Part shown: positions 2,722-12,323 of the stretch, piece by piece
Layout of the letters: each line of letters starts with the position of its first letter
How positions within the stretch are numbered: position 1 is the stretch's first letter
Origin: a virus
Length of the DNA: 49,977 nt
Reading direction: 5' to 3' (one strand)
Virus record (IMG/VR): IMGVR_UViG_3300047554_000625
Span: 1 to 49,977 of that record
The notes under the pieces: generated by a model
The model's input: the letters and a program-made list of their open reading frames with translations, nothing else
Told to the model about the DNA's origin: nothing
The model's database searches: none
Program-made: the position numbers and the translations under genes

Positions 2722-3394
2722 ATCCAAGTAGCGCGTCTGCTTTGAGCTTCGCAGCTTGGTAATTAGCATACCGATTGATAAAGCGTTGCAGAGTATGGTA
2801 ATTAAGGTACTTACCTTTGCCCAACAATTCTTTAGCGTACTCAACAGTGAGTTCATCATAGCTTGGATACCTCCGATGTGTGTCTTTGAAATTTCTTGCT
2901 AAACGGTTGGCACGTATTAGGTCACGTAGCACTGTGGAATTTATTCTTTGGGTAGTTGTTTTCTCCTTGTCAAAGTTAATACCTAAACATTCTAGTTCAA
3001 CTAGCATCTCTATCCAGATGAACCTTCTATTGAATGCGAATACCACACCCTTAATCGGTGTGTCTACACTTGACTCATTAACAAAGTCAAAGCAAACATC
3101 CATCCTTTTAAGGTGTCTCTCGTACTCACGGTAATTACCCTTGATGGGTTCATACCACTGTCTAGGTACTCCCTTAACATAGTGACCTGTCTTTTGTTTT
3201 TGTCCGTAGTGTTTACGCGCAAGGTTAGAAACCCAGTCAGAAACACCTAACCATAGTTCCTGCTTCTCTGTGTCAGATAGGTGTAGGTGCTTGCGTAGTT
3301 TGTCAAGTAAAGACAGGAACTTAGAGTCACCATTATCGGTTTTCTCTTTTAGTACCTGTCTTAATTCATTATTGGTTCTTAGTGGCTTCTTCAT
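2654..3394 (-). CDS. hypothetical protein, possible divergent sigma-like factor
   Basis: 246 residues, basic and mostly helical. I do not recognise it with confidence. Two segments fall in the order and spacing of sigma-70 regions 2 and 3: KGVVFAFNRRFIWIEMLVEL, comparable to region 2.3-2.4 (GFKFSTYATWWIRQAI), and later HRRYPSYDELTVEYA, comparable to the region 3 motif REPTPEELAE. This is eye alignment only. It starts at ATG 3392-3394, overlapping the preceding 44-residue gene by 26 bases, and its end overlaps the next gene, so it sits within a tightly coupled leftward operon. Confidence 0.7.
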   Translation of the reverse strand: MKKPLRTNNELRQVLKEKTDNGDSKFLSLLDKLRKHLHLSDTEKQELWLGVSDWVSNLARKHYGQKQKTGHYVKGVPRQWYEPIKGNYREYERHLKRMDVCFDFVNESSVDTPIKGVVFAFNRRFIWIEMLVELECLGINFDKEKTTTQRINSTVLRDLIRANRLARNFKDTHRRYPSYDELTVEYAKELLGKGKYLNYHTLQRFINRYANYQAAKLKADALLGYDEQRGGSENTFLLSDSGISTT

Positions 3395-8593: not shown

Positions 8594-9232
8594 CTATTTA
8601 TCGGTGGTAGGGTGTAGTTTGTTACGAATAACTATCCACGTTACAGCTTGTAGAGTTGATACTTCTAAGCCAAGTAGGTTAGCCACTACAGAGTAGTCAG
8701 ACCAGACGCTTATGTATTGTTTTCTTGACAGGCTAGGAGTTTTCATTTCAACTAATCCTAACCCGTGTTTCCATACTCGGTAAGCGTGTCTGTCTATCGT
8801 AGCATACTCAGTTTCACCGTAAATGTTGTGTGCGAATGACCACGTTTTGTGACCACTACCTAACTCAGATACTTCTGCTTCAAACCAAGCAAAAGCTTTA
8901 GTTGGGTCATTGATAAAGTCTAACGCTTTTTGGGCATTAAATTTATAGGTAGTGTACATATTGTCTTCTATAGATACTGAGTCAGTAGTGTAGTCTTCTA
9001 AAAACTTCTCACAGTACTTGACATTGTTTTCCCAAGAAGTAGCGGGGCTTAACACACTCATGATAATACATACAAGCTTGAATGACTTGTTGTAAGTATC
9101 TGCCAATTCTTGACAGACATCATGAGCAGTAGTATACCAGTCTTTACCTTGTCTTAGTTCTAGTTTAGAAGCTTCTAGGTATACTGATACAATGTGTTTT
9201 TGGTTAAGAGAAAGTTTAGTTAGGTCTAACAT
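8594..9232 (-). CDS. phage protein with HhH-GPD glycosylase-like motifs
   Basis: 212 residues. Motifs in order are VLSPATSWENNVKYCEKFL, then GSGHKTWSFAHNIYG, then ATIDRHAYRVW. The G-hydrophobic-G-K-T pattern followed by a V/I-D-R/T-H segment is reminiscent of helix-hairpin-helix DNA glycosylases (G.G.KTA...VDTH). It also resembles a phage-wide family of unknown function. A DNA-binding or base-recognition role is possible but unproven. AAGGT seven bases before ATG supports the start. Confidence 0.7.
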   Translation of the reverse strand: MLDLTKLSLNQKHIVSVYLEASKLELRQGKDWYTTAHDVCQELADTYNKSFKLVCIIMSVLSPATSWENNVKYCEKFLEDYTTDSVSIEDNMYTTYKFNAQKALDFINDPTKAFAWFEAEVSELGSGHKTWSFAHNIYGETEYATIDRHAYRVWKHGLGLVEMKTPSLSRKQYISVWSDYSVVANLLGLEVSTLQAVTWIVIRNKLHPTTDK

Positions 9233-10465: not shown

Positions 10466-10840
10466 CTACATTAGAATAGTTTCCATATTGTTTAGGTCAA
10501 AGTATGCAAGTTGGTTTCTTTGTTTAGAAATACAACGAGCATTTTCTTCTTCTTGGAAACATTCAGAGATGTCAAGGAATAGATGACCAGCATCTACCCA
10601 AGCACCAATGTAAAAGTTATCAACGTCAAGAATAAACTGATGACTTTCTAGGTAGTCATCAATGACTTTAGTTAAGTCAATTTCATCTAGACTTACCATT
10701 AATTCATAACCTTCTAAGCTAACCATGTAGCCAGTAGTAGGAGTAGGAAGCCCGTATCTGTAAGTAAAGCCTTGGTATTGTTCAACTTCACTAGCAAGTT
10801 TAAGAGAGTCTAACCATTCGATAGTAGTGTGAGTACACAT
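10466..10840 (-). CDS. conserved-type phage hypothetical protein (124 aa)
   Basis: First gene of the leftward early operon. The C-terminal half (FYIGAWVDAGHLFLDISECF, then ISKQRNQLAYFDLNN) matches a pattern I know from many phage proteins of unknown function: GAW.D.....D.S......A......Q.A.FDL. AAAGGT before ATG 10838-10840 supports the start. A 73-base hairpin lies just upstream in the leader. It is likely among the first proteins made. Confidence 0.7.
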   Translation of the reverse strand: MCTHTTIEWLDSLKLASEVEQYQGFTYRYGLPTPTTGYMVSLEGYELMVSLDEIDLTKVIDDYLESHQFILDVDNFYIGAWVDAGHLFLDISECFQEEENARCISKQRNQLAYFDLNNMETILM

Positions 10841-10867
10841 AATGCTTACCTTTGAATTGAAAACTAG

Positions 10868-10940
10868 GACTAGCCTACAACGAAGGTTAACAAGTTTGTT
10901 AGTGTGCTTAACCTTGTGGCTCTAACCTGATAGGCTAGTC
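10868..10940 (-). other. 73-base leader hairpin
   Basis: A perfect 10-bp outer stem, GACTAGCCTA 10868-10877 / TAGGCTAGTC 10931-10940, with a perfect 8-bp inner stem, AAGGTTAA 10883-10890 / TTAACCTT 10908-10915. It ends 15 bases upstream of the ribosome site of the first leftward gene, so it lies in that mRNA's leader. There is no U-tract. Possible RNase III or attenuation site. Confidence 0.5.
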
Positions 10941-11026
10941 TTGAGTAATAATCAAAAGTTAGGTACATCTAGTTAAGGTCATGTACCTTGACAAGTAAAT
11001 GCTAGGCAGGTTTCAGTAAGGACTTA

Positions 11027-11055
11027 TTGAACATCTTGTTAGACTCCATTATCGT
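11027..11055 (+). promoter_or_regulatory. weak sigma70-like promoter before the RNA array
   Basis: TTGAAC, 17-base spacer, TATCGT. Each box has about four matches to consensus. It would start a rightward RNA about 50 bases before the first pseudoknot-like unit. The matches are modest. Confidence 0.25.
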
Positions 11056-11114
11056 AAATACCTCGTGCATCCTAGGCATAAGTTAATTGAATTAAGTCTT
11101 TATTTGTGTTGTTT

Positions 11115-11380
11115 CTTGAGAGTGTGTTAGGTGAGTCTCAAGACTTCCCACCTTGTTTAACAGAGAATATCAAGTGAGTCTCTGTACTTCCCACTATCTA
11201 GCCAAGCATTGTGTTAAGTGAGTAGGCTTGTCATCCCACTAAGTAATACTGAGATGTAAACTCTCTCAGTGCAAGTCAAGTAAGTTAACTGGTAAACTTG
11301 TCACCCAGTCGTAACCAAGCAAGTTATCTGGTAAGCTTGTCACCCAGTGAGTATAGAACTAAGATGTAAAGTGTCTTAGT
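11115..11380. ncRNA. tandem pseudoknot-like RNA array
   Basis: Seven structured units. Unit 1 (11115-11153): stem CTTGAGA/TCTCAAG, whose loop AGGTG can pair with a downstream CACCT. Unit 2 (11160-11195): stem ACAGAGA/TCTCTGT, loop AGTG with CACT. Both share the linkers AG and ACTTCC. Unit 3 (11203-11240): CAAGC/GCTTG with AGTG/CACT. Units 5 (11277-11309) and 6 (11316-11348): CAAGT/ACTTG and CAAGC/GCTTG, each with CTGG/CCAG and linkers TAA and TCAC. Units 4 (11248-11270) and 7 (11358-11380) are plain hairpins, ACTGAGA/TCTCAGT and ACTAAGA/TCTTAGT, both with loop TGTAAA. Stems differ between units but pairing is kept. Strand and function are unknown. Confidence 0.6.
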
Positions 11381-11411
11381 GGCACAAATGAGTCAGAAGC
11401 TAGAAGACTTA

Positions 11412-11474
11412 GGCAAGCTGTCTAACATTCGTTGGTTAGACTATTATCTGTGACGTGGCAAGCTGTTAAACATT
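11412..11474. repeat. imperfect 18-bp direct repeat
   Basis: GGCAAGCTGTCTAACATT at 11412-11429 and GGCAAGCTGTTAAACATT at 11457-11474, 45 bp apart, the same spacing as units of the adjoining RNA array. The first copy is followed by GTTAGAC, making a 7-bp hairpin with GTCTAAC. Confidence 0.6.
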
Positions 11475-11690
11475 ATCTTTGTTGCTTACATTGTGTTTCC
11501 TTTTTACCGTGAGTCATTAGTAAATTCTGACTGCGTGTTGTGTGTTTCCTTAGCGTAGGCTGTGTTCAACTAGGTTACGTCTCTTAGAGTCTTACTACTG
11601 TATCTACTCATCACAGGAGCTTCTTAAGCTTATTTCTTTCGGTGGCTTGTCTTGAGGTCTTCTCCTCTCGACATATTCAATCTAACAAAC

Positions 11691-11896
11691 CTAGGCTGTT
11701 TTGACAAGGTGTTGTAACAATTCGTTACAATACAGTCTGTGATATATAGAACGCGTGTGTGTGCGTGTGTATTAACTTCACGTGCGCGTGTGTTAATTCC
11801 TTGTAGAATACCAGTCAAGCTAAGACTAGCCAAGTCTCTTAGGTAAGTTAGGCTAGGCTGTAGTATCTAGGCTGTTAGGTAAGGAATGTCTAGGCT
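11691..11896. repeat. iteron-like CTAGGCT repeats
   Basis: CTAGGCT occurs at 11691, 11853, 11867 and 11890, three of them within 44 bases. They may be protein-binding iterons of an origin or regulator. Short motifs, so moderate confidence only. Confidence 0.35.
11701..11731 (+). promoter_or_regulatory. sigma70-like promoter with overlapping palindromic operator
   Basis: A perfect -35 TTGACA (11701-11706) is followed 19 bases later by TACAAT (11726-11731). A palindrome, TTGTAAC-AATTC-GTTACAA (11712-11730), fills the spacer and overlaps the -10, as a repressor operator would. It points toward the late operon, leaving a ~590-base leader. The 19-base spacer is long for a strong promoter, so an activator may be needed. 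No repressor gene is recognised in the window. Confidence 0.45.
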
Positions 11897-11995
11897 TGCC
11901 TCTTGCTTGCCTGTACTGTAGAGACTTAACCCACCCGAGTAATGTAGAGACTCAACGGGGGGGAGGCGTGTGTGTGTGTAGTGTGTATTACTTAC
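11751..11995. repeat. GT-rich tracts and TGTAGAGACT direct repeat
   Basis: Alternating CGTGTGTGTG tracts at about 11751-11795 and 11967-11987 flank two copies of TGTAGAGACT(T/C)AAC (11917-11930 and 11943-11956) and a run of seven G (11957-11963). The same AATGTAGAGA core recurs near 10419 and, reversed, near 10306. Purine-pyrimidine alternation may favour non-B DNA. Confidence 0.45.
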
Positions 11996-12017
11996 TCTGA
12001 AATTTTACCAAGAAGCT

Positions 12018-12163
12018 GTACTGCCTACCCAACACGAAACCTAGTCTGTCTAGGACTAGGTAAGTGTTTGATGTGTTCTACTTGTCTCTGTATTTTAATT
12101 AATTGTTCTCTGCGGAAGCAGTCAGTGTAGAGGTAGGCGGTACAATCTAGTTGCTTCAACTAG
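12018..12163 (+). ncRNA. branched structured RNA candidate in late leader
   Basis: A long-range 12-bp stem, GTACTGCCTACC 12018-12029 / GGTAGGCGGTAC 12132-12143 (one G-U), encloses an 8-bp hairpin ACCTAGTC/GACTAGGT (12039-12061) and a CTGC-GGAA-GCAG hairpin with a GNRA loop (12110-12121). A separate CTAGTTG-CTT-CAACTAG hairpin follows (12147-12163). It lies about 160 bases before the first late gene. The role is unknown: leader control, processing or a packaging or structural RNA. Confidence 0.4.
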
Positions 12164-12323
12164 CGGTTAGCTCATCAACACTAAACCGAGTGAGGCTTTT
12201 AGGTCTATAACAACGACTAGCCGAACGAGGTTTATGGCACACCTAGTTATTTTGTAATTCAGTACAGGTTTTGGGTATTTGAGCGGAAGCCTATGCAGGT
12301 CAATACATACGGAGGTTTAACCA

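Follow-up and report, generated by a model that had tools for sequence, protein, structure and literature searches.

The window analysed here is the whole of a 49,977-base virus record, in which we recognised a primase/helicase, a DNA polymerase, an Erf-like annealing protein and a Cas4-like exonuclease, together with portal/adaptor, major head and tail proteins. Its terminase shares 37% identity with those of the freshwater cyanophages Pf-WMP3, PP and Lbo-JY12 and is slightly more distant from those of A-4L and TR020, and gene order matches that of Pf-WMP3, A-4L and TR020 (Saffermanviridae). The virus is a Saffermanviridae-like podovirus, kin of Pf-WMP3 and A-4L. Early genes run leftward (minus strand) and late genes rightward; the early genes continue across both record ends, so that the record probably represents a near-complete genome in circularly permuted form. 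The DUF7178/phrog_3842 protein encoded at 8594-9232 (minus) weakly matches an N-glycosylase/DNA lyase model, at an E-value of 2e-4 that falls short of the cut-off.

The early and late arms are separated by an intergenic gap at 10841-12323 (1.48 kb, without large open reading frames), which holds an array of seven units on the minus strand from 11385 to 11114, in the 5'-to-3' order C2-B2-B1-C1-A3-A2-A1. Stop codons are dense across all six frames of the array, indicating that it is noncoding. The units are given below with their RNA, slashes separating successive stem arms and loops and a doubled slash marking stems with no nucleotide between them; the second name is the number in the original prediction.

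11358-11385, minus strand: C2 (unit 7), GUG/CC/ACUAAGA//CAC/UUUACA/UCUUAGU
11316-11347, minus strand: B2 (unit 6), CUGG/GUGA/CAAGC/UUA/CCAG/AUAACUU/GCUUG
11277-11309, minus strand: B1 (unit 5), ACUGG/GUGA/CAAGU/UUA/CCAGU/UAACUU/ACUUG
11248-11276, minus strand: C1 (unit 4), ACUU/GC/ACUGAGA//GAGU/UUACA/UCUCAGU
11203-11240, minus strand: A3 (unit 3), AGUGGG/AUGA/CAAGC/CUA/CUCACU/UAACACAAU/GCUUG
11160-11195, minus strand: A2 (unit 2), AGUGGG/AAGU/ACAGAGA//CUCACU/UGAUAU/UCUCUGU
11114-11153, minus strand: A1 (unit 1), AGGUGGG/AAG/UCUUGAGA//CUCACCU/AACACAC/UCUCAAGA

The units, about 28-40 nt long, fall into three sub-families (A, B and C), with identities of 74-83% within sub-family pairs only and no base invariant through all seven. 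Divergence of this order is too great for Tandem Repeats Finder, which reports no array. Stem 1 is short in the C units (3-4 bp) and weak in C2, where 3 bp accompany a 7-bp stem 2 that carries a paired change relative to C1. C1 forms a pseudoknot on the minus strand only and includes a U-G wobble, while the fold of B1 is less certain because scanning that allowed G-U pairs preferred a competing local pseudoknot at 11288-11315. Just past the array lies an imperfect 18-nt direct repeat, its copies 45 bases apart (11412-11429 and 11457-11474; GGCAAGCTGTCTAACATT and GGCAAGCTGTTAAACATT), which is possibly an older, decayed unit.

We assessed whether the array was non-random with a strict scan limited to H-type pseudoknots with 5-bp and 4-bp Watson-Crick stems and limited loops. 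On the plus strand, the scan found five non-overlapping pseudoknots in 232 nt, and two other units (about 11248-11271 and 11358-11381) resembled hairpins.

11116-11152, plus strand: strict pseudoknot
11160-11195, plus strand: strict pseudoknot
11203-11240, plus strand: strict pseudoknot
11277-11308, plus strand: strict pseudoknot
11316-11347, plus strand: strict pseudoknot

Dinucleotide-preserving shuffles yielded a maximum of two strict pseudoknots (0/2,000 above two), and among 296-nt segments of both strands of the whole genome, counts of four or five were reached only in segments overlapping the array. No 235-nt stretch with at least four strict pseudoknots occurred in 264 other viral and phage loci (2.75 Mb, both strands). 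Since one knot could be multiplied by tandem duplication alone, we also re-dealt stem arms between units. Re-pairings as good as the real ones numbered 2 of 5,040 for stem 1 and 2 of 120 for stem 2, which equals the number expected from identical arms, such that only exchanges of identical arms pair equally well. By inspection of aligned units, A1 and A2 differ by four paired double changes, B1 and B2 by one, and C1 and C2 by one paired change in stem 2 and two in the short stem 1. The original prediction of seven units here was borne out, as were the specific changes it listed: units 1 and 2 have different stems that stay fully paired, units 5 and 6 show a T-A to C-G stem swap and units 4 and 7 a G-C to A-U swap. 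Pairing that is preserved while sequence changes points to a real RNA device, and these comparisons, drawn from paralogous units inside one genome, support a tandem pseudoknot RNA selected for pairing.

The strand carrying this RNA was assessed by scoring that admitted G-U pairs, using stacking energies and a crude loop penalty that rank folds and do not measure their stability. Six non-overlapping pseudoknots scored 98.0 on the minus strand, compared with four scoring 63.9 on the plus strand, with 0/1,000 shuffles reaching the observed score on either strand. The minus strand of the array was the top-scoring 275-nt stretch of the window (next independent stretch 69.0), and both apparent hairpin-only units, 4 and 7, also became pseudoknots on it. 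Its gain in score comes from stems extended by G-U pairs that are C-A mismatches on the plus strand. In A1-A3, one G-U lets stem 1 run on through GGG/CUC, and one U-G lets C1 form ACUU/GAGU; across four units a G-U pair on the minus strand corresponds to a C-A mismatch on the plus strand, and no pair is broken on the minus strand. Loop lengths were a further indication. By established H-type geometry, a loop of 1-2 nt is long enough to span the deep groove when stem 2 has 6-7 bp but too short for the shallow groove when stem 1 has 7 bp, and on the minus strand A1, A2, C1 and C2 have zero nucleotides separating the two stems. The 2-nt loop of C1 and C2 is therefore legal only on the minus strand, where it crosses the deep groove in the canonical manner; on the plus strand, the shallow groove of a 7-bp stem would be crossed by only 2 nt. 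Minimum free energy was better than that of shuffles on the minus strand (z = −2.5) and no better on the plus strand (z = −0.8). As A1-A3 are paralogues, the G-U pair common to them is partly one event, so the strand call rests on several modest lines jointly, and together they make it very probable that the minus strand is the functional one. While selection on RNA structure, as originally proposed, stood up, the plus-strand reading that went with it is probably wrong, given the wobble pairs, the lengths of the loops that cross the grooves and the direction in which the early operon runs; the plus-strand picture, in which two units are bare hairpins, is the minus-strand structure seen in its complement. 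Assignment to the minus strand would place the array in the 5' leader of an early transcript and not in a late leader.

The array occupies the position of the terminal repeat and early start in relatives, and we used a poly-G landmark common to the window and a relative (L007) to place the genome end.

11954-11966, plus strand: poly-G landmark, AACGGGGGGGAGG

This run is similar to a C-run found in Pf-WMP3, A-4L and TR020, where a run of C/G sits 25-30 bases into the terminal repeat. From the landmark and the position of the run in these repeats, the genome end is predicted near 11985, which would put the array some 600 bases inside the early end; positions within or outside the terminal repeat are both possible.

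On the same strand, the array is followed by the leftward early operon, in whose long 5' leader it would lie; the sequence gives good support to its structure and orientation, and its transcription is predicted. The same leader may hold two further pseudoknots, both suggestive only, the second immediately upstream of the first early gene.

11679-11707, minus strand: candidate early promoter upstream of the array, TTGTCA-17-(TG)-TAGATT, a consensus match only
10962-10992, minus strand: possible further pseudoknot, GUCA/A/GGUACA//UGAC/CUUAACUAGA/UGUACC
10883-10926, minus strand: possible further pseudoknot, GUUAG/AGCCAC/AAGGUUAA/GCACA/CUAAC/AAACUUG/UUAACCUU
10466-10840, minus strand: first early gene downstream of the array, 124 aa, phrog_17808, with an AAAGG ribosome-binding-like sequence

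The score of the segment containing these two candidates (10841-11110) was matched by 24 of 1,000 shuffles on the minus strand and 336 of 1,000 on the plus strand, and no terminator-like site was present on the minus strand between array and gene (11114 to 10841). The candidate promoter (11707-11679) is treated as hypothetical because promoter-like sites in the region were no more numerous than in shuffles; if it is right, the leader would be roughly 830 nt long. It adjoins GTCGAGAGGAGAA, a stretch similar to ATCGAGAGCA..GAAAAC from the terminal repeats of Pf-WMP3 and A-4L (CGAGAG context). Also upstream of the array, a ribosome-binding-like site is followed by a start codon fused to a stop codon (11485-11507, minus; AAAAAGGAAACACAATGTAA). 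In L007, the corresponding early leader carries a perfect TTGACA-17-TATAAT at about 3361-3389 (minus), consistent with early transcription by host RNA polymerase in this family. Phages of Fusobacterium, Gordonia, Rhodococcus and Arthrobacter also carry members of the phrog_17808 family, sited in several cases close to a genome end; structure prediction for the 124-aa protein was unusable (mean pLDDT 39).

Searches of relatives and databases returned no second array. The closest terminase (L001, 75% identity) belongs to a locus that ends before the array region, and L007 (61% terminase identity) spans the region with an unrelated leader. The strict scan found no array in 80 terminase-bearing loci, nor was one found in the reference genomes; a profile search with the first early gene gave 25 loci, none with a comparable array upstream. 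When G-U pairs were admitted, high scores among relatives arose only in GC-richer regions, of which the two inspected (L050 and L034) were coding. IMG/VR yielded no close relatives of the first early gene or the DUF7178 gene, and a terminase scan of genome contigs gave only two remote matches. BLAST of the array region against phages and plasmids gave no match, and no Rfam family reached its gathering score, with only chance-level matches (E 1.6-5). Scans of IMG/VR for three loop patterns gave zero matches for one and scattered single matches (58 and at least 119) without arrays for the other two; the sole in-register match, in L107, lies within a coding gene and was rejected. Absence from relatives that cover the region fits an accessory rather than an essential element.

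We then compared the array with known structured RNAs. Type III antitoxins are arrays of H-type pseudoknots, with ToxI repeats of 34-36 nt, and are laid out as promoter, pseudoknot array and open reading frame on one strand (PMC5086642). The array shares with ToxI, CptI and TenpI the short H-type units in tandem and the downstream same-strand open reading frame, and with CptI a short loop 1 and an A-rich last loop. Each unit folds computationally as an H-type pseudoknot (stem 1 of the C units weakly), while the repeats are not conserved in length and sequence, no toxin of the ToxN, CptN or TenpN kind was found downstream among ten early genes tested (Pfam, PADLOC, NCBIfam), and no Rho-independent terminator precedes the open reading frame; as a PF13958 search of the whole record had no positive control, a toxin of an unknown family could still be encoded. 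Two expectations from the sequence thus held, namely that no ToxN-like toxin gene lies nearby and that the units vary more than ToxI repeats do. The units, in three sub-families, differ too much among themselves for a ToxI-type antitoxin, in which repeats are near-identical: the array has the shape of a tandem pseudoknot antitoxin and is not classed as one. The nearest phage parallel is pseudo-ToxI of phiTE, an expanded set of noncoding tandem pseudoknot repeats that titrates ToxN (PMC3475682). Pseudo-ToxI is likewise phage-encoded, noncoding and built of tandem pseudoknot repeats, but its repeats are near-identical and clearly match the host ToxI, whereas the array had no antitoxin match in the plasmids and phages searched. 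Other comparisons fit less closely. Several H-type pseudoknots are also strung in one RNA in tmRNA, from which the array differs in having neither a tRNA-like domain nor a tag reading frame, and no tmRNA was detected in the window. HK022 put RNA, which modifies RNA polymerase (antitermination), and the T4 gene 32 leader pseudoknot are likewise structured phage leader RNAs, of one or two elements compared with seven units here.

We favour, with a probability of roughly 0.4, a trans-acting early RNA that binds protein in multiple copies, as a decoy or antitoxin-like RNA, over a leader acting in cis. The leader would be among the first RNAs produced after injection and would act stoichiometrically, each knot sequestering one molecule of an RNA-binding protein from the host. 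Plausible targets are a defence RNase or the toxin half of a system with an RNA antitoxin, and the bound protein would be blocked from acting, as ToxN is when titrated by the expanded pseudo-ToxI of phiTE. The phiTE case shows that phages can use tandem pseudoknot RNAs (PMC3475682), and an early protein-binding RNA is suggested by the speed with which the array is gained or lost, the number of units, their place at the end transcribed first and the conservation of their shape. Pairing kept despite drift in stem sequence leads us to propose that recognition depends on shape and a few loop bases, and the related but unequal units would reflect repeated duplication and tuning. The lack of an invariant base argues against a single sequence-specific partner. 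In a more doubtful extension, the array would be a pre-emptive multivalent counter-defence in which distinct knots titrate one or several RNA-binding host toxins or nucleases, each of sub-families A, B and C being adapted to a target of its own. The ToxI-like decoy of the original prediction is neither demonstrated nor refuted: there was no Rfam ToxI-type match, no type III toxin family among the ten early genes tested and no matching sequence in plasmids or phages. That lack of sequence similarity to known antitoxin RNAs counts against a decoy, as does the 3-4 bp stem 1 of the C units, and the location of the array suits a cis-acting leader equally well.

Such a leader, a credible though less probable reading, would stabilise the 5' end against RNases, control translation of the first gene or modify RNA polymerase (antitermination). 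The array lies in the predicted leader of about 830 nt, on the strand of the first early gene and directly ahead of it, with the two further possible pseudoknots in between. The relative A-4L lacks an RNA polymerase gene and is believed to rely on the host enzyme (PMC9410186), which early control would therefore have to target. Seven tandem units nevertheless exceed the needs of known leader regulators, and relatives have the same operon without the array, with leaders that are apparently far shorter. A functional RNA from the plus strand, for instance an antisense small RNA directed at the early leader or a portion of a late transcript, is unlikely: the five strict pseudoknots do form on that strand, and two more with G-U pairs appear at 11389-11455 (plus; not significant), but it has C-A mismatches in four units, only 2 nt to cross the shallow groove in units 4 and 7, a score below that of the minus strand and a free energy no better than shuffles, and its transcript would head for the predicted genome end, not the early genes. 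Proximity to that end, with several hundred bases between the array and the terminus predicted from the shared poly-G run, could instead suggest a packaging or replication element whose inverted repeats act as DNA or single-stranded DNA. We consider this very unlikely, as interleaved pairing (a b a' b') with preserved complementarity indicates a folded single strand and not duplex sites, and relatives with the same kind of ends lack the array. Least probable, and likewise very unlikely, is a full type III-like module with the array as antitoxin and the adjoining 124-aa gene as toxin. The order of promoter, array and open reading frame on one strand is that of type III systems (PMC5086642), but the gene has no toxin-family match, its family occurs in other phages without pseudoknot arrays, and no terminator-like site lies between array and gene.

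Pseudo-ToxI of phiTE is the only tandem-pseudoknot phage RNA that we found described, with nothing comparable found for freshwater cyanophages, and a diverged seven-unit cyanophage array would be a second, independent case. It also indicates that paralogous units in a single genome can give compensatory evidence and a strand assignment without relatives. The array offers a compact target for tests of RNA-based counter-defence or leader control in freshwater cyanophages.
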